A DNA stretch of 64,000 nucleotides from Streptomyces phaeolivaceus (lineage in GTDB: Bacteria > Actinomycetota > Actinomycetes > Streptomycetales > Streptomycetaceae), in contig NZ_CP045096.1 in the NCBI RefSeq assembly GCF_009184865.1, positions 4,588,001-4,652,000 on the forward strand, in the 5' to 3' direction. Below the pieces are notes generated by a model that made no database searches, was not told where the DNA came from, and saw only the letters and a list, made by a program, of their open reading frames with translations. Made by a program: the position numbers and the translations under genes. Positions within the stretch are counted from its first letter, which is position 1, and each line of letters begins with the position of its first letter. This document shows, in pieces, positions 50,790 through 62,109 of this stretch.

Positions 50790-50870
50790 GTCGAATCGAT
50801 CAACTCGGCCAGCTCGATCAGCTCGATCAGCTCGATCAAATCAGTCGACTCGGCCAACTCGGTCAACTCG
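50790..50870. repeat. AGCTCGATC minisatellite between XRE and HbhA genes
   Basis: About eight 9-nt units of (A)GCTCGATC or ACTCGGTC type lie in the 182-bp gap and just inside the XRE 3' end. Confidence 0.85.
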
Positions 50871-51402
50871 CCGTCTGCCGCGGACCGGCATCGTCGCCGT
50901 CGGCCGTACGAGGGCCGGGGGCCGATGCCTCTCCGGTATCCACCGCGTCAGTCGCCACACCGGTCCCGACCCCACGGCCGCCGACGACGTCGTCACCGTC
51001 GATCTCACTGTCGATCACACGGACGACGTGACTGACGACCTCGCTGTCGATCTCGAACCCGTTCTCCTTGCGGAAGGACTCGTAGATCTGGAGCAGCACC
51101 TGCTTCTGCCGCTCGTTCAGCGTGGGATCGGCGAGGATGACGGCGCGCGTCTCCACCTCGTCGCGATCCCGCTCGGCGTCGAGGATGCCGGCCCGCACGT
51201 ACAGCGTCTCGGCGGAGATCCGCAGCGCCTTGGCGACCTGCTGCAACACCTCCGCGCTCGGCTTGCGCAGCCCGCGCTCGATCTGGCTCAGATACGGATT
51301 GGACACCCCGGCGGCATCGGCGAGCTGCCTGAGCGACAGCCGCGCGTTCCGCCGCTGTTCACGCAGATACTCACCGAGATTGCCGACGTTGAGCGATGCC
51401 AT
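50863..51402 (-). CDS. XRE-family regulator (179 aa)
   Basis: HTH: LGEYLREQRRNARLSLRQLADAAGVSNPYLSQIERGLRKPSAEVLQQVAKALRISAETLYVRAG, then a helical C-terminal region and an acidic tail. The ATG at 51402 has GGGGGC upstream. The perfect inverted repeat at 51429-51456 just ahead of it suggests autoregulation. Probably controls the HbhA-like gene downstream. Confidence 0.88.
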   Translation of the reverse strand: MASLNVGNLGEYLREQRRNARLSLRQLADAAGVSNPYLSQIERGLRKPSAEVLQQVAKALRISAETLYVRAGILDAERDRDEVETRAVILADPTLNERQKQVLLQIYESFRKENGFEIDSEVVSHVVRVIDSEIDGDDVVGGRGVGTGVATDAVDTGEASAPGPRTADGDDAGPRQTAS

Positions 51403-51428
51403 GCCCCCACCATGCCCCACCCCCGCTA

Positions 51429-51456
51429 ACTTTTGCAAGCACCCGCTTGCAAAAGT
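51429..51456. promoter_or_regulatory. Inverted-repeat operator of the XRE gene
   Basis: 12-bp arms ACTTTTGCAAGC / GCTTGCAAAAGT with a 4-bp spacer, 27 nt upstream of the start. Unusually AT-rich for its surroundings. The likely binding site of a regulator dimer. Confidence 0.8.
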
Positions 51457-51476: not shown

Positions 51477-51481
51477 GAGGA
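51477..51481. other. Left copy of 5-bp target-site duplication (GAGGA)
   Basis: GAGGA directly precedes the transposon's TGTGAC end and is repeated right after the other end at 60195-60199. Confidence 0.9.
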
Positions 51482-51530
51482 TGTGACTGAGCACGCTGGT
51501 TGTCACTTGAGCAAGGCAACTGTCACCAAG
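51482..51530. repeat. Left end: terminal inverted repeat and TnsB-type sites
   Basis: The terminal repeat contains TTGTCAC, and CTGTCACC recurs at 51520-51527, where it overlaps the stop codon of the distal tniQ gene. The element is therefore compact at this end. Confidence 0.85.
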
Positions 51531-52800
51531 GCTCGCGCCGGCGATACCCCTCCGAGCGCGCCCCACTGCCATCGCCCTTGGGGATCGGTCCGCGGGCGAT
51601 GATGTCGCCCATCGCCATCATGCTCTTGGGGCGGTTCATGCTGACGATCCGCAGCGGGAACGAGACCCACGCCTCGCGCCGGAGGTAGATCGACAGGGCT
51701 TGATCGACGCAGCTGGCCTGGTGGATGAGCGGCAGCATGAGCTCCCGCGCCTGTTCCTCGTCCGGGGCATCAAGCAGCCGCTCGGCGATTCCGAGCACCG
51801 CGCCCATGAGAAACGGGTCCAGCGGTGGGTCGGTGAAGGGACGCGAGCTGTGCTTCTTCCCAGGCCTGTCACGAAGGGCCGCTGCACGGGCAAGGCGCTC
51901 CTCGGCTTCCCGGTCAATGGCCTCCGCGAGCGCCGGGGTCGCGGCGAAGGAGCGAGCCGCAGGCCAAGAGAGGAACACGAGGCCGAGCAAGGCCCTCAGG
52001 TCGGCGAAGTAGTCAGCGGCGGGGATCAGCCAGCCGACGCTCGGGGTCACGGCCGGGCCGACGGGATCGAGGAGCTTCAGGAGCCGTCGCTGAAGGCCGA
52101 GGAGATGCTCCAGCGTCTGCGGGTCCGGTGCGATCTCGGGACCAGCCCCGACTGGCTCCGCGAGCTGTGCGCCACAGGCTGACTGGAGGCGCCCGACGGT
52201 GCGCGGCGCGATCGTGGTCCGGCATTGCGTCGGATGAAGATCCTCGTCCCAGGGGCGGGCGATGATGCTGTTCATCTCGACCGCGTGGACGGGCTGACGG
52301 CAGGCCGGGCAGTTGGTCCGAAGGAGACGACGATGCCGAGGGCAGGCGAAGACCGGCGGGAGGCGCCAGGAAAGCCGCCAGGCCCCGCCGTGGCGCCGTT
52401 GGATCTCGCTCCTGTCCCCGGTGAGACATTGCGGGCAGTACCTCGGCGTTCGAGTCAGCAGCCACGCGTTGTCGTTGATCATCCTCGCGGCGCTACTGCG
52501 CGGGGTGAACCTCCTGTTCGCCGGCCCGTACCGGCCGGCGAACGAGGAGGTCACCAGTCGGCCGATCTCGTCCGGGGAGAGGCGGGTGGTTCGACTGAAG
52601 AGCCGCACCTGTCCGGGCTCCAGGTCGTGCAGCAGCCGCATGGGGATGCGGAACAGCACGTTCTCCTTACGGCCGCCGGTCAGACCGGTCCAGATGGCGA
52701 TCGCCCCTGGCGAAGTTCCGAGGCGGTGCGCGAGGCGAAGGATGTAGCCGGTCAGCGCCTCGTCGGGGAGTGGGTCGAGGCTGCGGGGCAACGCGCGCAT
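51523..52800 (-). CDS. tniQ: TniQ-family targeting protein, distal copy (425 aa)
   Basis: TniQ fold: LPRSLDPLPDEALTGYILRLAHRLGTSPGAIAIWTGLTG at the N-terminus, then zinc-ribbon motifs RYCPQCL, CPRHRRLL and CPACRQPV, and the C-terminal SVGWLIPAADYFADLRALLGLVFLSWP. It is clearly paralogous to the proximal TniQ at 54358-55611. In Tn7-like systems TniQ/TnsD links the TnsC filament to the target. It is separated from the transposase operon by the membrane-protein gene. ATG start at 52800; the 217-nt gap upstream may hold its own promoter. Confidence 0.9.
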   Translation of the reverse strand: MRALPRSLDPLPDEALTGYILRLAHRLGTSPGAIAIWTGLTGGRKENVLFRIPMRLLHDLEPGQVRLFSRTTRLSPDEIGRLVTSSFAGRYGPANRRFTPRSSAARMINDNAWLLTRTPRYCPQCLTGDRSEIQRRHGGAWRLSWRLPPVFACPRHRRLLRTNCPACRQPVHAVEMNSIIARPWDEDLHPTQCRTTIAPRTVGRLQSACGAQLAEPVGAGPEIAPDPQTLEHLLGLQRRLLKLLDPVGPAVTPSVGWLIPAADYFADLRALLGLVFLSWPAARSFAATPALAEAIDREAEERLARAAALRDRPGKKHSSRPFTDPPLDPFLMGAVLGIAERLLDAPDEEQARELMLPLIHQASCVDQALSIYLRREAWVSFPLRIVSMNRPKSMMAMGDIIARGPIPKGDGSGARSEGYRRREPW

Positions 52801-53017
52801 GACCGCATGTTGCCCCGCGGTGCTGGCCCGAACGCCGTGCTGGCCAAACCACCGGAGAGCAGGTCCGTGTCCCTCCAGACGCTCACACCGCCGTTGGCAC
52901 GTTCTACCACTCCTCCACGGAGGCGAACGCCGAGGTCACCAGCCGTCTAATATCCGAAAAAAACCGGTCGTTGATGCCCTGGCCCGCCCCGTGTACTCCA
53001 CGGCAAGGCCGCCCCTC

Positions 53018-54139
53018 TCACCCGACTGCAATGTCCTTCACGCAGAGCGTCCGGACCTCGGCATTGCTCACATCCACACCGTCCGCGCCCCCCACCTTTA
53101 GGACCGACTTGTGCTGGAGGGCGCCGGTTACTCCGGGTACCAGCGCACACTGCGACATGCTGTCTCCGTCTATGACCTGGACAACCTGGACAGTGGCATT
53201 GGGATCTTCGCAAGGAACTGCGATTGGCTGATCCCGGTCGGCGGCGATGCAGTCACCCACCACTGGAACCGGCTGGTCATTCGGGTCACTGTCCTCGCCA
53301 GCGTCCGCAAAAAATGCTCCGTAGACAAAGCCAACCGCCAGCAAGAGGAACACGGAACCCGCCACAAACAGCTTGCCACCGTGCCATACGAGGCGCACTA
53401 GCCGTCTGAGCCGCCCTGTTCGAGCAGGCATCTGGGGGAGAGATGAAGAATCAATAGCGCCGGATTCTGACACCGCAGAGTCCAACCCATACCTCTGGTC
53501 CGCGACCTTTCGGGCAAATTCTGGATTTTCCGCCTTAATCCAGGCCCAAAGCGACGCAGCGATCGAAGGTTTCCCGTTATCGACCCACTCACGGAACTCG
53601 GCAACCATTTTGGCGTGCTCCGCTGTCCACTCGAAATGACGCAGGCACATGTGGCAAAAATCTGGGGATACGTTCCACTCATCTTGCTGCCATCCGCCGC
53701 ACTCTGCGCACACAAGCGGCCCGTGAGGCGGCAGGGGGGTCAGTCGACTCTTGGGCTGTTCTCTGATCGGGGCACCAGCAAGCGGTACCATCGCCCGTAC
53801 AGCCTTCCGCATTCCTCCTCGTCTACCCAGCAGGCCGATTTGGCCTAGCGGACCGGCATCGATGAAAGCAGAGAGACGGAAAGGGAATCGCTTCTCGGTC
53901 AAGACTCTGACCACATCGGGATGAGCGATAGAGGTACAAGTGAAGTTGTCCTGCACTATGAGGATACGCAGGTCAGTGACTGCGAATACTCCACCAGGAC
54001 GCTCGATCGCCCGCTCCCCTGCCGTAAGCTGTCCCAGCAGGACCAGGAAGGTTTCGAACTCGCAGATCGAGAGCAGCCGCTCGTCCTCCCGCACGTAACT
54101 ACGGATGCGCTGCCAAGACTTGTACCTCTGGATCTCCAC
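53018..54139 (-). CDS. Membrane protein with zinc ribbon, only cargo-like gene (373 aa)
   Basis: Residues 1-125 form an unrecognised cytoplasmic domain (WQRIRSYVREDERLLSICEFETFLVLLGQLTAGERAIERPGGVFAVTDLRILIVQ, PH-like in appearance). A CAECGGWQQDEWNVSPDFCHMC zinc ribbon follows at about 143-164. One membrane helix (GKLFVAGSVFLLLAVGFVYGAFFA) is near 255-278. The outside domain VPVVGDCIAADRDQPIAVPCEDPNATVQVVQV resembles the LppU/SCO3897 C-terminal fold. GTG start with AGGGGG. Codon use is somewhat less GC-biased than in host genes. Confidence 0.72.
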   Translation of the reverse strand: MEIQRYKSWQRIRSYVREDERLLSICEFETFLVLLGQLTAGERAIERPGGVFAVTDLRILIVQDNFTCTSIAHPDVVRVLTEKRFPFRLSAFIDAGPLGQIGLLGRRGGMRKAVRAMVPLAGAPIREQPKSRLTPLPPHGPLVCAECGGWQQDEWNVSPDFCHMCLRHFEWTAEHAKMVAEFREWVDNGKPSIAASLWAWIKAENPEFARKVADQRYGLDSAVSESGAIDSSSLPQMPARTGRLRRLVRLVWHGGKLFVAGSVFLLLAVGFVYGAFFADAGEDSDPNDQPVPVVGDCIAADRDQPIAVPCEDPNATVQVVQVIDGDSMSQCALVPGVTGALQHKSVLKVGGADGVDVSNAEVRTLCVKDIAVG

Positions 54140-54357
54140 CAGGCCCCCTCACTCGCTACCCCAGGGCGGGATCGTAACGCCTCATGGAAGGAGCATTTAC
54201 CAGAGGTTGAGCAGCGGAAATCCGGCCCCTGATCGTCGACAGAACCAAGCCCCGAGCAACGGCACTCCATGCTGATCACCGTGGTGGCCGCTATCCCCGT
54301 GGGCAGAGAGACGGTCATGGGCGGAGTCTTCGTATCCCGCCGCCCCCACATGCAACT
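54140..54357. other. Spacer between proximal tniQ and cargo gene
   Basis: 218 nt, comparatively AT-rich. I see no gene and no clear promoter. Confidence 0.5.
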
Positions 54358-55611
54358 TCAGGTGAGTCGCTGGGCTGCGGCAAGGCGCCTGAAGCCCTGT
54401 CCCTCGATCCGCTGCCCCATGCGCTGGAACGCCCCACGGTCCTGACGCGAGGTCAGGAGGATGGCCTGGAGCGGGTAGGAGGTCCCGCTGAGGCGTCGGA
54501 ACTGGTAACTCATCGAGAAGTTCCGTTCCTTGGCTCCATCGATGATCGGCGCCATCAACTCGTGGGTCTCATTCTCGTCAGGGGCCGACAGAAGCCGTGC
54601 GGCGATGCCCAGCACCGCGCCCGCGACGGCGGGATCCGCTGCCGGGTCGCTGTAGTGGTGCGAGGCTTGGCGCCGTCGGCCGGCCTTGGCCTCGGCCCGG
54701 GACTTGGCGAACTCGGCGTGCCGTTCCTCCGCCTCCCGGTCAACCAGCACGGCCAGAGCCTCTGTGTCGGCGAGTGCCCTGGCGCGGGGCCAGGTCATGA
54801 AGATCAACGCGCTCAGAGCGCGGAGGTCGATGAAGTACTGGGCCGCGGGAATCAGCCATCCGAAGCTGCCCACCAACTTCGGCCCATCGGGGTCCAAGAG
54901 CCCGTCGAAGTGGTGCTGAAGCCTCAGCAACGCGGCGACCGCGGAGGGAGCGCGGGGAAGCCGGTCCTCTTGGCCGGCCAGGCCCGCGCCACACATCGCT
55001 CGTGTGCTGGGGACGGTGGCTCTGCACTGAGCGGGGTGGAGGCCCGCCTCGGAGGCTCGGGCGATCAGGCTTCCCGTGCGAGCCGCGTTGACGTCCTGCC
55101 CGCAGCGAGGGCAGCCGGACAGCAGCAGGCGCTGGTGACGTAGACAGGCGAAGACGGGAGGCAATCTCCAGGCCCGGCGCCAGCACCCACCGTGACGCTC
55201 TTCGATCTCGGTTCCGTCGCCGGAGAGGCATCGCGGGCAGTACCGGGTCGTCCTGGTGAGAATCCAGCGGTTGTTGTGGACCATTCCCTTGGGCGTACGG
55301 AACTCGGCCAGCAGACGTGCGCTCAGCGGACCGTAGCGCTCGCCCAGCGGAGCCGTCAGCAACCCCCGGGCCTCATCACGCGTGAGGCGAGTGGCGCGAG
55401 CGAACGCGTCGAGCCGCCGCTCGTCCAGGTCGTGCAGAAGGCGAACGGGAATGCGATTTCGAGCGGGGACCGGATCGACGAGCCCTGTTCGGACGGCGAT
55501 CTCCAGGGGTGCGGCGCCGAACCGGTGGGCGAGCCGGAGAAGATATCCGTGGATCGATTCGTCCTCCAGCGGGTCCAGGCTCCGGGGCAGGAGTCGCAGG
55601 CGGCCTGCCAT
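54358..55611 (-). CDS. tniQ: TniQ-family targeting protein, proximal copy (417 aa)
   Basis: LLPRSLDPLEDESIHGYLLRLAHRFGAAPLEIAVRTGLV, zinc pairs in RYCPRCLSGDG, CLRHQRLLLSGCPRCG, and SFGWLIPAAQYFIDLRALSALIFMTWPRARALADTEAL. These follow the distal copy along the whole length. The ATG overlaps the tnsC stop by one base (TGATG), as expected for a core operon member. Probably couples TnsC to the target. Confidence 0.92.
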   Translation of the reverse strand: MAGRLRLLPRSLDPLEDESIHGYLLRLAHRFGAAPLEIAVRTGLVDPVPARNRIPVRLLHDLDERRLDAFARATRLTRDEARGLLTAPLGERYGPLSARLLAEFRTPKGMVHNNRWILTRTTRYCPRCLSGDGTEIEERHGGCWRRAWRLPPVFACLRHQRLLLSGCPRCGQDVNAARTGSLIARASEAGLHPAQCRATVPSTRAMCGAGLAGQEDRLPRAPSAVAALLRLQHHFDGLLDPDGPKLVGSFGWLIPAAQYFIDLRALSALIFMTWPRARALADTEALAVLVDREAEERHAEFAKSRAEAKAGRRRQASHHYSDPAADPAVAGAVLGIAARLLSAPDENETHELMAPIIDGAKERNFSMSYQFRRLSGTSYPLQAILLTSRQDRGAFQRMGQRIEGQGFRRLAAAQRLT

Positions 55612-56876
55612 CAGGCATCGGCGGCGGGGCGGCCGCCCTGGTCGTCGAAGGCGGTGTTCCGGCCGCGCCTGCGGCGCTTGGGCGGGGCTCCTCTTCCCTC
55701 GTCCTTGAGCACGGGGACCTCACCGGAGCCCGGGTCCCGCCCGGGAACGTTGCCGAGATTGATGGGGATCTCCTGGAGCAGGTCGATGGTCAGGTTCTCC
55801 TGGCTGGTCTCTATGGCCTTGGTGCAACCGTCCTCGATGAGGCGTTTCAGCAGCCCGACAATCCCCTCGGTACGGCGGAACAGGTACTCGGGCATCGTGC
55901 CGCCGGTGAGCATGCCCGGCGCTGCCCGGAAGAGCCGCAGCTGGTCTTCGATGCCGGCGAGGTGGTTGACCCAAGCGGCAATGCCGTCGGGGGTGTCGTA
56001 GTGAAACGGGTCGAGGTTGATCATGTCGAAGCGGCGCTCGGTCTGGGTGGCCGCCTCGTCGTTGTGGCTTCTGCCGCATTTGACGGGCGACAGCGCCGTC
56101 TGCCCAGTGCGCGGGTCGTGACGGCCTTCCCGCAACAGCCCGGAGCTAGGGATGTTGACGCCGATGAGGACGAGAGTGACGTTCAGGCTCATCAGGTCCC
56201 GGATGAGATCGAGGGTGTCCTGGTCGTCTTCCCTGTGCATCTTCAACCGAGTGATGTCGTCGAGCAGCAGCGCTGTGGTGCAGTGCGCGTGCAGGGACTC
56301 GCGGACGTTGCGGATCAGCCCACGCAGGGTCTTGGCGTGCGGGGCTCCGTAGAAGTCCAGGATCGCCTCGCACAGTCCCTTCGGCGTGGCCTTGACCGGC
56401 GTCTGGCAGTAGGCCACCGGCAGGAAGAGGTCCCGGGTGCCGGGGATCGCGTTCGGGTTGAGCTGGTGGTGCAGGTCGCGCCAGAAGTCCTCGAACTCGG
56501 CGGCGGTCTCGCAGGCCGTCTCCGTCTTTCCCTGGTAACCGCCACCGTTGATCATCAGTCCGTCGCGGGTGCCGGGTGTCTGCTTCAGCGCGTTGTTCTG
56601 GAGTCTGGCCCGCATCAGCGCGGTGACCTGCGCGCTCATCGGGGTTTCCTGCATCCGCAGGTTCACATGGGTCGCCGCTCGGTGCAGGTCATGCAGCCCG
56701 CGCTTGCGGGGGCTCATGGCCCGATACTGGTCCAGCGTCAGTCTTGGGGCCGGAATGAAGGCTCCTCGTGTCCGCCGCCACTGCTGGTATCCCTCGTGGG
56801 TGACCCGGTTCGGCGAGGGACCGATCCGGAGGAACGGGACGACACCATCCTGCGGTCCGCTCTGGCCATCGACCAC
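55611..56876 (-). CDS. tnsC: TnsC/TniB-like AAA ATPase (421 aa)
   Basis: P-loop ATPase: Walker A GGGYQGKTETACE at about 110-122, Walker B TTALLLDDI near 205, sensor VTLVLIGVNIP near 236. A basic C-terminal tail (PPKRRRRGRN) could contact DNA. It is the transposition regulator that bridges TnsB and TniQ. I prefer the GTG at 56876, since GGAGGGG lies 6 nt upstream and the overlap with tnsB is small; the longer frame starts at 56918. Confidence 0.92.
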   Translation of the reverse strand: MVDGQSGPQDGVVPFLRIGPSPNRVTHEGYQQWRRTRGAFIPAPRLTLDQYRAMSPRKRGLHDLHRAATHVNLRMQETPMSAQVTALMRARLQNNALKQTPGTRDGLMINGGGYQGKTETACETAAEFEDFWRDLHHQLNPNAIPGTRDLFLPVAYCQTPVKATPKGLCEAILDFYGAPHAKTLRGLIRNVRESLHAHCTTALLLDDITRLKMHREDDQDTLDLIRDLMSLNVTLVLIGVNIPSSGLLREGRHDPRTGQTALSPVKCGRSHNDEAATQTERRFDMINLDPFHYDTPDGIAAWVNHLAGIEDQLRLFRAAPGMLTGGTMPEYLFRRTEGIVGLLKRLIEDGCTKAIETSQENLTIDLLQEIPINLGNVPGRDPGSGEVPVLKDEGRGAPPKRRRRGRNTAFDDQGGRPAADA

Positions 56877-56877
56877 G

Positions 56878-59151
56878 TCATTCCCCTCCGGCCGGGAGCG
56901 AACTGCCGCCCGGCTCACCCTCGTCGTTCTCGTCCCCGTCAGGCAGGATGAACAAGTTCCTCTTGCGGTAGCTGGCGCCCAGCGGGGGCGGAAGCGCGGG
57001 CCGGGGCGGCCCGGCTACTTCTCTGCGTCGGCGGCGCTCGGCGTCCAAACTCTCCTCGGCCCTGCGCGCCTGCTCCGGCCAGTGCAGGTGAACGACGGTG
57101 TCTCCTGCCGCCCGGTTGGCAGGCTCCTGCTCGGCCTGCGTAGCTGGACGGTCGGCGGCAGCGGTACTGGCCTGGATGACATCGCGGGCGTATTCGGTGC
57201 GCCGGGACTTCTTCAGGCGCGTCGGCCAGTGCGCGACCGGTGTGTGCAGGCCGATCACGTCGAGGAGAAGCGGCAGGAGTTCGGCGTCCGTCTTCGGTTT
57301 CAGTCCCGCCTTCTGTGCCCGCTGTAAGAAGTCGCGCACCCGAGCGTCGCCAAAGGCCGGCGTCCTACCCTCCGGTGGGAGTCCGGTCCAGCGCAGCGGG
57401 TGCCATGCGTGGGTGAGCGGGTCCTGGAAGAACACGGTGCGGCGGTCACGGGGCTCGCGGTGGACGATCCACTGCCCTTTGCGTCTGCCGCCACGGGTGG
57501 ACCGCTGGTCACGGTAGGGATCCAGAGCCGGGCCGTCGTACCAGAGCCCACGGATCTTCACTCCGCGGCGGCCGTGGATCTTCGTCACCGTGTGCTGCGG
57601 CAGCAGCTGGTAGTAGAGCTCGGGCGAGGGGATCTCCATCGCGAAGCCGCCCTGGGCGAACGAGGCCGCGAAGAGCGAGTTCGGGCTGTGGTCGCCGCCC
57701 GGGTCCCAGCTCGGCGCGTACTCGCCCAGGCGGCGCTGTTGCCACACCTTCACGATCCACGTTGCGATCACGTGCTCCATCTCCTCGATGGTCCACGTTG
57801 CGTCGCCCTCCGGGTCGGCCCCACGATCGGCGACATCGACCCCGGTGTAGCCCAGCAGGTGCTCGAACAGCAGAGACCGGATGCTGCCGAAGGCCCTCTC
57901 CACCACCTGCTTGTCCGTGGGACGCAGGATCCTGGAGGGAAGGATGTTGCAGCCGAGCACGCGCTGAACATCGACGAGATGGTGATTGCGGTAGACCGAC
58001 CCGTGGTCGGTGGTCACCGTCTCCGGGGCGAAAAACGGCAACCCGGCGACCTCGTATCCTGCGAACTCGGCGACCACGGCGGCAGGCAGCCCGGGATAGG
58101 GCCACTCCATGTCCTCGCCCCAGTCCGCCCGCATCGGCAGCGGCAGCATCACGTCCCGTAGCAGCATCGCCACGTCCACCGAGGTGTCGGAGACCAGGGT
58201 GAGGCGGAAAGCGCACAGCGAGTGCGTGTAGACATCCATGGCGAGAGTCAGGTGGACCTTCACCGGATCACCGAACACGCCCTCACGGACCATGACGGGC
58301 AGCACCGTGGTGTCCAGCGCCACTACCTGCCCGGGGCGGTGGACCACCACATGACCAGCCTTGGTGGGCAGCTGGGCCGAGCGCTCATAGCGCTGACGCG
58401 CTCCGTTCGGGCCGAACCACTCCTTCCAGACCCTCAGCAGGGTGTGATAGCCCGGGACCGCGGTGTCCGGGCCGAAGGTCTCCCGTACGTACTGGTGGAT
58501 CATGGCCTCGCGGGTGCGGCCATGTACTCGGGAGCGGTGCAGCGTCTCCGCCCGCACCGCGAAGATCGCCTCCCGGACCTCCTCGCTGATGCTCGGATGC
58601 CCGCCGCTCTCCCGCAGCCATCGATCGTCTGCGCAGCCGATCAGCCCGAAGCGGCTGCGGTTCTTCTCCCAGCGGATCAGCGTGCGGTAGCCCACCTCCG
58701 CGAGGCCGAGTAGCTTTGCTTCCTCACGGTTCAGGGCTTTGAGTTCGGCGACCTTCGCCATCCGCCGTTCGGTCAGCGTGGTCGTCTCCGGGTCGTACTC
58801 GGGCTTCGGTTCCCCCGGCCCCGGCCGCAGTGGATCGCCGCTGCGGAACCCCGTCTTCACTTCCAGCAGATGGGCCACGCGCAGCTCGGCCAGCCGACGC
58901 CTGTCCGGCTTCAAGTCCCCCACCGAAGCGGGCTGCCGACCACGGCCCGCCCCCGAGCCCGACGTCCGGGACGAAGGACGGCAGTGCTGGTGATTGGCCA
59001 GGAATCGGAACGTCAAGCGCTGCCTTGAACCGTCGGGTCCCACCAACTGAACCCGCCCGAGATGCGGTTCACGCCGTTCGACGATCCATTCGACGTCGTC
59101 GAGCACAACCCCGGCACCCACGGACAGGTCCAGCACGCGAGCGGTACTCAC
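56878..59151 (-). CDS. tnsB: TnsB/TniA-type DDE transposase (757 aa)
   Basis: Mu/Tn7-type integrase superfamily. N-terminal HTH region (EEAKLLGLAEVGYRTLIRWEKNRSRFGLIGCADDRWL) precedes the RNase-H core with Asp in VVALDTTVLPV, Asp in TVTTDHGSVYRNH and Glu in DKQVVERAFGSIRSLL. The C-terminal beta-barrel and tail (residues 560-757) are basic. The GTG at 59151 overlaps the tnsA stop as GTGA. It would join element 3' ends to target DNA, giving the 5-bp duplication found. Confidence 0.94.
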   Translation of the reverse strand: MSTARVLDLSVGAGVVLDDVEWIVERREPHLGRVQLVGPDGSRQRLTFRFLANHQHCRPSSRTSGSGAGRGRQPASVGDLKPDRRRLAELRVAHLLEVKTGFRSGDPLRPGPGEPKPEYDPETTTLTERRMAKVAELKALNREEAKLLGLAEVGYRTLIRWEKNRSRFGLIGCADDRWLRESGGHPSISEEVREAIFAVRAETLHRSRVHGRTREAMIHQYVRETFGPDTAVPGYHTLLRVWKEWFGPNGARQRYERSAQLPTKAGHVVVHRPGQVVALDTTVLPVMVREGVFGDPVKVHLTLAMDVYTHSLCAFRLTLVSDTSVDVAMLLRDVMLPLPMRADWGEDMEWPYPGLPAAVVAEFAGYEVAGLPFFAPETVTTDHGSVYRNHHLVDVQRVLGCNILPSRILRPTDKQVVERAFGSIRSLLFEHLLGYTGVDVADRGADPEGDATWTIEEMEHVIATWIVKVWQQRRLGEYAPSWDPGGDHSPNSLFAASFAQGGFAMEIPSPELYYQLLPQHTVTKIHGRRGVKIRGLWYDGPALDPYRDQRSTRGGRRKGQWIVHREPRDRRTVFFQDPLTHAWHPLRWTGLPPEGRTPAFGDARVRDFLQRAQKAGLKPKTDAELLPLLLDVIGLHTPVAHWPTRLKKSRRTEYARDVIQASTAAADRPATQAEQEPANRAAGDTVVHLHWPEQARRAEESLDAERRRRREVAGPPRPALPPPLGASYRKRNLFILPDGDENDEGEPGGSSLPAGGE

Positions 59152-59984
59152 GACGACTCCGATCCGAGGACAACTGTGGAACGGTCCCCGAGAGGCCGGC
59201 CCAGATCGATGCCGACGCGGCGGTGCCACAGCAGGTGCAACAGATGGGCCCGTGCGACCGGCTCGAACGCGCTTCCCGCCGCGATCTCCCCGAAGGTCAT
59301 GGCCGCACCGGCTCCGGCGAGCAGGCCCGGCCTGACACCCAGCGGGTCCGTGAGCGGCCGACGCCTGGCCGACATCGCATCCACCACCATTAGCACGCAC
59401 GGCTTCCACCGCGCAGCCACCGTGTAGTGCCAGCCGCAGGCCAACGCGGCCTCGGCCGCCGCTGCGAAGGACTCCCGGTCCTCGTCACCGATCAGGTCAG
59501 CGGGGCGGACGTCGATCAACCAGATGCCCAGGCGGCTGACCATAAGGAAGTCGGGGGTGTGCCTGCGCCATCCGTCGACGGTACGGAACTTCAGCCGAAG
59601 TGGCTGCGAGAGGACCTCGACCACGTGGCCGGCGAAATCCAGGACCAGCAGCAGCCCGGCTTCCTCCAGACTCTCGAAGCCGTGCAGGCGGCCGGTGCTG
59701 ACCATGTACTCCAGCCCGGGACGATGTCGCTGGTCGCGCCGCCAGGTGAAGCCCCGCATCGGCCCCAGCCTGGTGACCGGAGCGGCTGCCAGATCAGCCA
59801 CCGCGCTTGTAACCTCGCCCCCGGCGTACCGCCAGGTAGCCGTCCACCGCCGCGTCCAGCCCTCGTCCAGGTCGAGCGTCTGACGCCCCGCGCCGAGGGA
59901 GACCGGTACGAGCAGGTCGTCCCACCGGCACGAATGCGACCACAACGGCCCATACACCGCACCGTCAGCCGTCCGGGCGTGCAC
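59148..59984 (-). CDS. tnsA: TnsA-like endonuclease subunit (278 aa)
   Basis: Restriction-endonuclease-like fold: Glu in GRLHGFESLEEAGLLLVLDF, Asp in RRHTPDFLMV, then LIDVRPADLIG in place of the usual E/QxK. The C-terminal part resembles TnsA C-terminal wing segments (GEIAAGSAFEPVARAHLLHLLWHRRVGIDL). It would cut the 5' strands so that transposition is cut-and-paste. GTG at 59984 with AAGGA 8 nt upstream is the best start; the open frame reaches a TTG at 60080 inside the right-end repeats. Coupled to tnsB. Confidence 0.85.
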   Translation of the reverse strand: MHARTADGAVYGPLWSHSCRWDDLLVPVSLGAGRQTLDLDEGWTRRWTATWRYAGGEVTSAVADLAAAPVTRLGPMRGFTWRRDQRHRPGLEYMVSTGRLHGFESLEEAGLLLVLDFAGHVVEVLSQPLRLKFRTVDGWRRHTPDFLMVSRLGIWLIDVRPADLIGDEDRESFAAAAEAALACGWHYTVAARWKPCVLMVVDAMSARRRPLTDPLGVRPGLLAGAGAAMTFGEIAAGSAFEPVARAHLLHLLWHRRVGIDLGRPLGDRSTVVLGSESS

Positions 59985-60062
59985 CCCGCCAGATCCTTGA
60001 ACCTCCGCCACGTCTCCAGGGAAGCGAAGCCCGGCGTACGCCGTAGGCGATCTTCGGTACTG

Positions 60063-60194
60063 GTGACAACAAGACCGCAAACGATCTCAGCGTGACAAGA
60101 GTCCTGCACTTCCAGTGACAACAATCCCGCTCACGCCATCGCGGCGGACGATGTCGGGACGACTCCCAGGTGACAACCACCGTGCTCAGTCACA
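60063..60194. repeat. Right end: four TnsB-type sites and terminal inverted repeat
   Basis: GTGACAA begins at 60063, 60092, 60115 and 60170. The last is part of the terminal repeat GTGACAACCACCGTGCTCAG ending CACA at 60194. All four are in the same orientation, facing the end. Confidence 0.9.
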
Positions 60195-60199
60195 GAGGA
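60195..60199. other. Right copy of 5-bp target-site duplication (GAGGA)
   Basis: Identical to 51477-51481 and directly adjoining the right terminal repeat. Confidence 0.9.
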
Positions 60200-61229: not shown

Positions 61230-61332
61230 GAGCCGGACACCGCCGAGCGGGCCACGACGACGCTCAGCGGGGCCGACTCAAGCACTCAGTCGCAGGTCGT
61301 TGCACGTGGTCAGCGCGGAGTGGAGGTGGCTG

Positions 61333-62109
61333 GTGGAGGCTGAGGACTTCTGGCTGGAGTACGTCGACGCTCGCGGTGAGCTGCACGAGGGACCGTTTGA
61401 GGTGATGTGGTCGGCGCCTTTCGAGGCGGCCAGGCAGGTGCGGGCATTTCCGTCCTACCGGGGTCAGCGCAGTTTCCCCGGCTGGTACTGGGCCGCTACG
61501 GGTGCCGAGTTGGTGGGTTATGAGTCGTGGGTGGAACTCGGTCAGCTGATGCGGCTGGACTGTGATCCCGGCGTGGTGGCGATGGCGTCGCAGCCGTTCC
61601 GGCTCTCGTGGCGGTCTGACGGACGGAACCGGCGGATCAGCCACACTCCGGACTATTTCGTTCGCCGTCGGGACGGCACCGGTGTGGTGCTGGACGTGCG
61701 TCCCGACGACCGGATCGAGCCCGAGGACGCGGTGATGTTCGAGGTCACGGCGGCGGCCTGCGCACGGGTGGGCTGGAGCTTTGAGCGGGTGGGTGTTCTC
61801 GATCCGGTGCTGGCGGCGAATCTGCGCTGGTTGTCGGGCTACCGGCATCCGCGGGTGCGGCGAGATCCGGTGGCGGAGGAGTTGCGGGCGGCATTCGCCC
61901 GGCCTCGGGGTCTGTTGGCGGGCGCCTGTGCGGTGGGCGATCCGATCGCCGTGTTGCCGGTGCTCTTCCATCTGCTCTGGTGCGGGGAGCTGGCGGTGGA
62001 TCTGGAGGCCGGTCTGCTGTCGGCGGCCACGCAGGTGAGCCCGGTGTCCGTGGTCGCGGAGGAGGTGGGTGGGGATGCCGGCACGTCCGAGGCTGCTGTC
62101 GCTGGGTGA
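61333..62109 (+). CDS. tnsA: TnsA-like endonuclease subunit of the second element (258 aa)
   Basis: Same fold as the first TnsA: Glu in VGYESWVELGQLMRLD, Asp in ISHTPDYFVRRR, then VVLDVRPDDRIEP where E/QxK is usual. GEL...CAVGDPIAVLPVLFHLLWCGELAVDLEAGL matches the C-terminal wing of the other copy. I chose the GTG at 61333 because GGAGG lies 6 nt upstream; the frame is open from a TTG at 61300. Its end overlaps tnsB by 35 nt. Confidence 0.83.
   Translation: MEAEDFWLEYVDARGELHEGPFEVMWSAPFEAARQVRAFPSYRGQRSFPGWYWAATGAELVGYESWVELGQLMRLDCDPGVVAMASQPFRLSWRSDGRNRRISHTPDYFVRRRDGTGVVLDVRPDDRIEPEDAVMFEVTAAACARVGWSFERVGVLDPVLAANLRWLSGYRHPRVRRDPVAEELRAAFARPRGLLAGACAVGDPIAVLPVLFHLLWCGELAVDLEAGLLSAATQVSPVSVVAEEVGGDAGTSEAAVAG

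Follow-up and report, generated by a model that had tools for sequence, protein, structure and literature searches.

The stretch analysed here, a 64,000-nucleotide piece of the Streptomyces phaeolivaceus genome (contig NZ_CP045096.1, positions 4,588,001 to 4,652,000; hereafter the window), contains a complete Tn7-like transposon of 8,713 bp at positions 51482-60194. The element is flanked by two copies of GAGGA, read from the sequence at 51477-51481 and 60195-60199, which represent the 5-bp target-site duplication (TSD) of a Tn7-like transposon; for a sister element, an empty site is available (see below). The terminal inverted repeats (51482-51509 and 60167-60194) are 28 nt long and 93% complementary, with one mismatch in the outer 25 nt; they are the top inverted pair among 25 listed of 56, and the single longer pair listed (29 nt) is 76% complementary. 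When the outer 25-mer was searched against the 10.18-Mb genome (≤3 mismatches), it matched at the two element ends only; the reversed-pattern control gave 0 matches, and a chance origin of the repeats was rejected on this ground.

Following the convention in an excerpt of a review (PMC11406308), the tnsA side is called the right end. The left end (51482-51509, plus strand), which is tnsA-distal and proximal to the attachment (att) site, consists of the terminal inverted repeat with one GTTGTCAC box (51499-51506), whereas the right end (60063-60194, minus strand) combines the terminal repeat with four GTTGTCAC-type boxes (60170-60177, 60115-60122, 60092-60099, and 60063-60070). At ≤1 mismatch, a single copy of GTTGTCAC is present within the outermost 260 nt of the tniQ end, against four at the tnsA end. 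These are putative TnsB-type binding boxes, and their uneven distribution gives the element the asymmetric ends of a Tn7-like transposon. From the exact TSD, the open genes, and the matched ends, it is plausible that the insertion is recent and the element probably active.

All genes of the element are on the minus strand. The tnsA gene (59148-60080, start as read) matches NF033179 (TnsA_like_Actin, 126 bits). It is followed by tnsB, a DDE transposase open reading frame (ORF; 56878-59409) whose true start is probably near 59150, by tnsC (55611-56918; TniB/AAA ATPase), and by tniQ-a (54358-55611; 417 aa), which adjoins tnsC. A cargo gene (53018-54139) encodes a 373-aa protein with a weak LppU/SCO3897 C-terminal match (26 bits, cut-off 25) and no match in a Pfam scan. 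The last gene, tniQ-b (51523-52800; 425 aa), ends 13 bp from the terminal repeat, and its product is 48% identical to that of tniQ-a. TnsB matches TnsB chains in the PDB at 1e-11; its family match is IS481-like/DDE transposase, with an IS481 score far below the family cut-off. TnsB carries DTT, TDHG, and VVERAF, and TnsC carries GGGYQGKT and LLLDD, which we take to be their catalytic motifs. The product of tniQ-b has a CCCH motif (C122-x2-C125 ... C153-x2-H156) that is invariant in 43 aligned relatives, drawn from 120 listed of the 220 found. For the AlphaFold model of the tniQ-b product (pLDDT, a per-residue confidence score, 85.9), the best structural alignments are with TniQ and TnsD chains, and a TniQ profile search returned TniQ.1 at 4e-4 and Tn7 TnsD at 2e-3. 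The element therefore has the gene set of a Tn7-like transposon: TnsA, TnsB (DDE), TnsC (AAA+), and TniQ/TnsD.

Two other element types were rejected. A CRISPR-associated transposon does not fit, as the scanned ORFs comprise the tns and tniQ genes and one cargo gene, without cas genes, and no CRISPR array was seen; CRISPR-like spacing was absent among 20 listed of 48 direct-repeat families. The Tn5053/Tn402 family is not known to have TnsA and has a resolvase; here TnsA is present, and no resolvase match was found among the six element ORFs scanned. The same six ORFs gave no match to TnsE, which is weakly conserved. A sequence-only reading of the window had described a complete Tn7-like transposon with 24/25-matching terminal repeats, GAGGA on both sides, asymmetric TnsB-type sites, intact TnsA, TnsB, TnsC, and TniQ motifs, no Cas genes, and an intergenic location. 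All of this agrees with our data.

Insertion upstream of an XRE-family regulator gene

Next to the left end is an XRE-family regulator gene (50863-51402, minus strand), whose upstream region is the target. This region contains a palindrome, TTGCAAGC-N4-GCTTGCAA (51433-51452), and a 16-mer, GCTTGCAANAGTTAGC (51425-51440, minus strand), which comprises the distal half-site and an asymmetric extension. From the left end inward to the gene, the layout is the 5-bp duplication, ~22 variable bp, the palindrome with its extension (TTGCAAGC-N4-GCTTGCAANAGTTAGC), and the XRE start codon (ATG) ~78 bp from the element. The insertion is upstream of the regulator's palindrome, and both the palindrome and the XRE gene are left intact.

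The sequence-only reading held the targeting rule to be unknown and proposed searching for the ends and insertion sites of relatives. A comparison of 16 occupied sites gave one rule, which supersedes the earlier statement. The element end is 39-42 bp from GCTTGCAANAGTTAGC at all 16 occupied sites, with the 16-mer intact in 16/16, and 76-80 bp from the XRE ATG at the 15 sites where the ATG is available. Where genes give the orientation, the tnsA-distal end faces the XRE gene; orientation was read from genes at 13 of the 16 sites (for L013, from a tnsA end on another contig) and from a tnsA remnant at one (G113), and G391 and G212 are end-only sites with no readable orientation. Exact TSDs were found in 10 of the 11 elements with both ends available (window, L009, L010, L012, L013, L014, L016, L018, L032, and G143). 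The ten sequences are all different, which indicates that position, not the sequence at the insertion point, is specified. The elements thus have the fixed position (16/16) and orientation beside a conserved gene that mark Tn7-like transposons. The earlier reading had also expected both the end repeats and GAGGA to recur in homologous elements: close homologues retain the repeats, but GAGGA does not recur and should not, since each element has a duplicated 5 bp of its own.

A TnsB search of genome contigs returned 24 loci, ten of which are at the site (L009, L010, L011, L012, L013, L014, L015, L016, L018, and L032). The right junction of L009 is in L037/L083, the junction of L013 is in L042 on another contig, and the junction of L015 is also in L036. 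An off-site reading of L013 was rejected, as the att site of its genome, which is on a different contig, bears an element end whose TSD (ACCGC) is identical. The other 14 loci comprise seven with 10-kb flanks without an XRE match (L019, L023, L026-L029, and L031) and seven on short or cut contigs. Half of the 16 sites were read motif-free, via TnsB or the window itself (window, L010, L011, L012, L014, L016, L018, and L032); for the other eight, the junctions of L013 and L015 were found via the motif (≤3 mismatches), five sites via the occupied-site pattern, and G143 was located separately. The longer att motif (≤3 mismatches) is present in 323 of 392 Streptomyces genomes, with at most one match per strand per genome, and the occupied-site pattern in 8 of the 392.

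We refer to the window element and its relatives as Family 1, and to a divergent Tn7-like gene set on the window element's other side as Family 2. The joined flanks of L012 give a base-precise empty site when compared with L136 (genome G324), matching at 93.7% over 300 nt with 0 gaps. For the window, the comparison was made with genome G040, which has Family 2 beside the site and, in the 20 kb retrieved, nothing that matches Family 1; the joined flanks match at 89% over 582 nt with 16 gap columns, which is not base-precise. Related elements measure 7.3-17.2 kb, and L016 is a tandem arrangement, with another element-type end directly adjoining. Some relatives at the site are decayed: TnsB of L012 and TniQ of L016 are in pieces, and G369, G113, G083, and G089 are decayed as well. 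Element-type ends also occur at the site in three genomes without a PF06527 match (G391, G212, and G113; L095, L096, and L098). The retrieved stretches of G391 and G212 have no tns match and that of G113 has a tnsA remnant only, and these ends are relics or non-autonomous elements.

In a tree of 31 TniQ rows, rooted at the midpoint only and with long branches, a clade of 16 rows (11 elements) with 100/99 support is entirely at the site. Fifteen rows had been placed at the site when the tree was built, and they make up one side of a branch with 90/90 support, short of the level that the program marks as firm; L013, the sixteenth, was assigned to the site later. The TniQs in the clade measure 404-431 aa as read; those of the other rows measure 608-658 aa, with L017 (356 aa) as the exception. 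A further draw, of 121 genomes, contained 17 with TnsB relatives, at 22 places, and G000 and G101 have theirs at the site. Eighteen stretches from the other 15 genomes represent 19 of the other 20 places, all but G104:C75. The XRE gene is present in 2 of the 18 (L220 and L221), both with decayed Family 1 genes; the other 16, three of them under 12 kb, have no XRE match, and their intact-looking TniQs are ~503-710 aa, the others being fragments. Four genomes are firmly off-site by coordinates: G031 (att at 3.44 Mb, TnsB at 5.42 Mb), G032, G055, and G134.

Target recognition and alternative explanations

Across the sampled elements, position and orientation are fixed, the duplicated 5 bp are arbitrary, the empty site of a sister element is known to the base, and all sampled members of the TniQ clade are at the site. 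We consider it very probable that the window element is a cut-and-paste-type Tn7-like transposon with one fixed att site, where one or more TnsD-like TniQs would read the half-site and recruit TnsABC. One or both TniQs would recognise GCTTGCAANAGTTAGC, the distal palindrome half upstream of the conserved XRE-family gene, and TnsC would be recruited as a bridge. TnsA and TnsB would then insert the element upstream, ~40 bp from the half-site on its gene-distal side; TnsA would cleave, the tnsA-distal (left) end would point toward the gene, and whichever 5 bp lie there would be duplicated. We infer the role of TniQ as the DNA reader from the geometry, the CCCH motif, the modelled fold, and the profile matches, which support it well; bridging by TnsC and cleavage by TnsA are presumed. 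By our own count, the palindrome and its extension span approximately +27 to +54 from the middle of the duplication. This geometry resembles that of attTn7, where, according to an excerpt of PMC2918618, the TnsD footprint covers +23 to +58 from the same point, insertion is ~25 bp from the site, and mutation of the TnsD CCCH motif abolishes binding.

The palindrome is directly upstream of the XRE gene and seems to resemble an autoregulatory operator, and at ≤2 mismatches it is found at a single place in the window's 10.2-Mb genome, the true site having 0 mismatches. Both features would suit targeting mediated by the host XRE regulator, in which an operator-bound repressor recruits TnsC or TniQ and TniQ reads protein rather than DNA. 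We regard this as distinctly improbable, as the TniQs exceed 400 aa, a size class that a survey, in the excerpt available, ties to direct target selection (PMC10293859), and have retained the CCCH motif, on which DNA binding by TnsD depends (PMC2918618). In addition, L014 and L016 are both still occupied despite altered proximal palindrome halves, which makes the distal half, together with its AGTTAGC extension, the better candidate for the sequence that is read. Every Family 1 element at the site is related to the others, as would be expected if the shared position reflected vertical inheritance of one ancient insertion instead of repeated targeting; there is hardly any room for this explanation beside ten different exact TSDs, an occupied-site pattern confined to 8 of the 392 genomes, elements of differing size and cargo, the base-precise empty site, and the tandem arrangement in L016.

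Compatible with recognition of the att site by TniQ is the proposal that a single TniQ reads it, the other serving a second pathway (e.g., conjugative plasmids) or being a relic of a tandem fusion. To this we assign an even chance. Complete elements in which one TniQ was found (L014, L015, L018, and L032) use the same site, which indicates that two TniQs are not required; L016 is a tandem, and a tniQ pair flanks the cargo in the window, L009, L010, and L012. On the other side, both TniQs fall within the site-specific clade, and neither looks specialised for another target.

Several observations weigh against TniQ-directed insertion at this site. TnsB and TniQ are co-inherited, so that phylogeny cannot tell the reader from the transposase. 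The reversed-palindrome control gave 2 matches per strand; the motif at 2 mismatches is thus not beyond chance, and its uniqueness makes no statistical claim in itself. The palindrome is symmetric whereas insertion is one-sided, and an asymmetric determinant is needed. The TSDs of L015 are unequal (AGCAG/ACAGC). Finally, the contrast between the at-site clade and elements elsewhere, mostly with larger TniQs, is partly firm and only partly tested: an XRE-free flank is no proof of an off-site position, as L009 and L013 are at the site yet have no XRE match within 10 kb, and L205 (G104; TnsB 68%, on a 5.3-kb contig without TniQ) looks close to Family 1 and may belong to it.

The element resembles Tn7 (TnsABCD, attTn7 at glmS) in its tnsA, tnsB, tnsC, and TnsD-like TniQ genes, its 5-bp duplication, its end asymmetry, and its fixed distance from a recognised site (~25 bp in Tn7) that is left intact. 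It differs from Tn7 in using the upstream operator-like site of an XRE gene, where Tn7 uses the 3' end of a gene's coding sequence, and in having two TniQs of similar size with no TnsE recognised among the scanned ORFs. The tnsA end of Tn7 faces glmS, whereas here the tnsA-distal end faces the site. By host phylum and gene set alone, the element is like an Actinobacteria-dominated Tn7-like clade (Benler et al., 2021; PMC8649781), and a further likeness is that some relatives carry defence-type cargo genes; the excerpt of that study reports no experimentally characterised member of the clade and gives no att site in its text. Modular target selection by TniQ-family proteins is a likeness to Tn6022/TnsF and dual TniQ-TnsD elements (Faure et al., 2023; PMC10293859). 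In the dual loci, as excerpted, one protein usually exceeds 400 aa and the other is substantially smaller, whereas here both are 417-425 aa and belong to one clade. Tn7706 of Rhodococcus erythropolis, in an excerpt of PMC12915292, is likewise an actinobacterial tnsA/tnsB/tniB/tniQ element; most contigs of a single genome carry copies of Tn7706, complete or partial, whereas the window element is single copy at one site. A literature search, which did not cover supplementary site lists, found no title or abstract opening describing an att site upstream of an XRE gene. The rule read here replaces an unknown target with a concrete, testable one for an actinobacterial Tn7-like lineage, and would extend Tn7-type homing from coding or tRNA sequence to operator-like sequence; a site that the pattern (≤3 mismatches) finds in 323 of 392 Streptomyces genomes could serve integration in antibiotic-producing bacteria.

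A second family at the site, other relatives, and cargo

The Family 2 set beside the window element (61300-66080, plus strand) comprises tnsA' (61300-62109), tnsB' (62069-64165), tnsC' (64156-65202), and tniQ' (65199-66080), the last three reaching past the window end. It is divergent from the window element, and the 293-aa tniQ' product matches PF06527 only at E 0.048. With this set on its other side, the window element is placed between the site and an older element of the other family, the far end of which was not located. An NmrA/SDR gene is between the end of this Family 2 element and its tnsA' (60200-66080; L089). Homologues of tnsA' start within ~400 bp of the palindrome in 7 of 79 distinct survey rows (L067, L075, L076, L107, L113, L129, and L137); fragments are near the palindrome in L116 and L139, a set is 2.4 kb off in L157, and G044 (L097), a genome with the occupied-site pattern, is a further case. 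Family 2 genes at the site read away from it, opposite to Family 1. The Family 2 element of G174 appears complete (5,847 bp, TSD GCCTC, 9 of 12 end bases identical), and its right end takes up the position most frequent in Family 1, at 29 bp from the palindrome. We also count 29 bp to the palindrome for the near ends in G028 and G026; the far end was located in neither. A rule of insertion beside a Family 2 end was rejected, as the flanks of L010, L012, L014, and L032 have no tnsA' match.

One joint reading, which we offer tentatively and think rather unlikely, is that the operator-like site is a genus-wide dock that two divergent Tn7-like families read independently, at the same position and in opposite orientations, with the host regulator on the same palindrome competing or being needed. 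Two families using one site in opposite orientations would allow orientation control to be studied on identical target DNA. End-like motifs (CTCAG/CTCGG) were also seen at -37 to -40 from the palindrome in L074, L077, L078, L080, L104, L111, L112, L146, and L148. CTCAG is at -39 in 6 of 85 att survey rows (three of them Family 2), six of the 85 having been chosen as occupied, versus a mean of 0.12 per position; these motifs suggest further elements or scars at the site.

In tnsA (59148-60080), tnsA' (61300-62109), and their relatives, the position where, we assume, TnsA-type nucleases have their catalytic lysine reads DVR or DIR in every listed row (26 related rows, two of which repeat the TnsA of the window and of L009). 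Three TGAGCC-ended relatives (L020 and L021 at both ends, L022 at the right end) are on contigs that stop ≤1 base from the element end, which suggests several copies per genome; their TniQs are ~610-620 aa. A related element on a linear plasmid of S. nojiriensis (L182; NZ_CP107888.1), annotated with TnsA-like, transposase, AAA, and TniQ genes, has a TniQ of ~610 aa.

Among eight cargo proteins of relatives that were scanned, four are of defence type: L009 encodes HsdR and HsdM of a type I restriction system, L012 encodes AIPR, and L014 encodes a protein with a SAVED domain. The remaining four comprise a peptidase inhibitor in L010, a DDE_5 transposase in L018, and, in L011, where a further 2.6 kb follows the second tniQ, a DUF5710 protein and one protein without a match. 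L032 has an ORF, outside the scanned eight, that is near-identical to the SAVED-type ORF.

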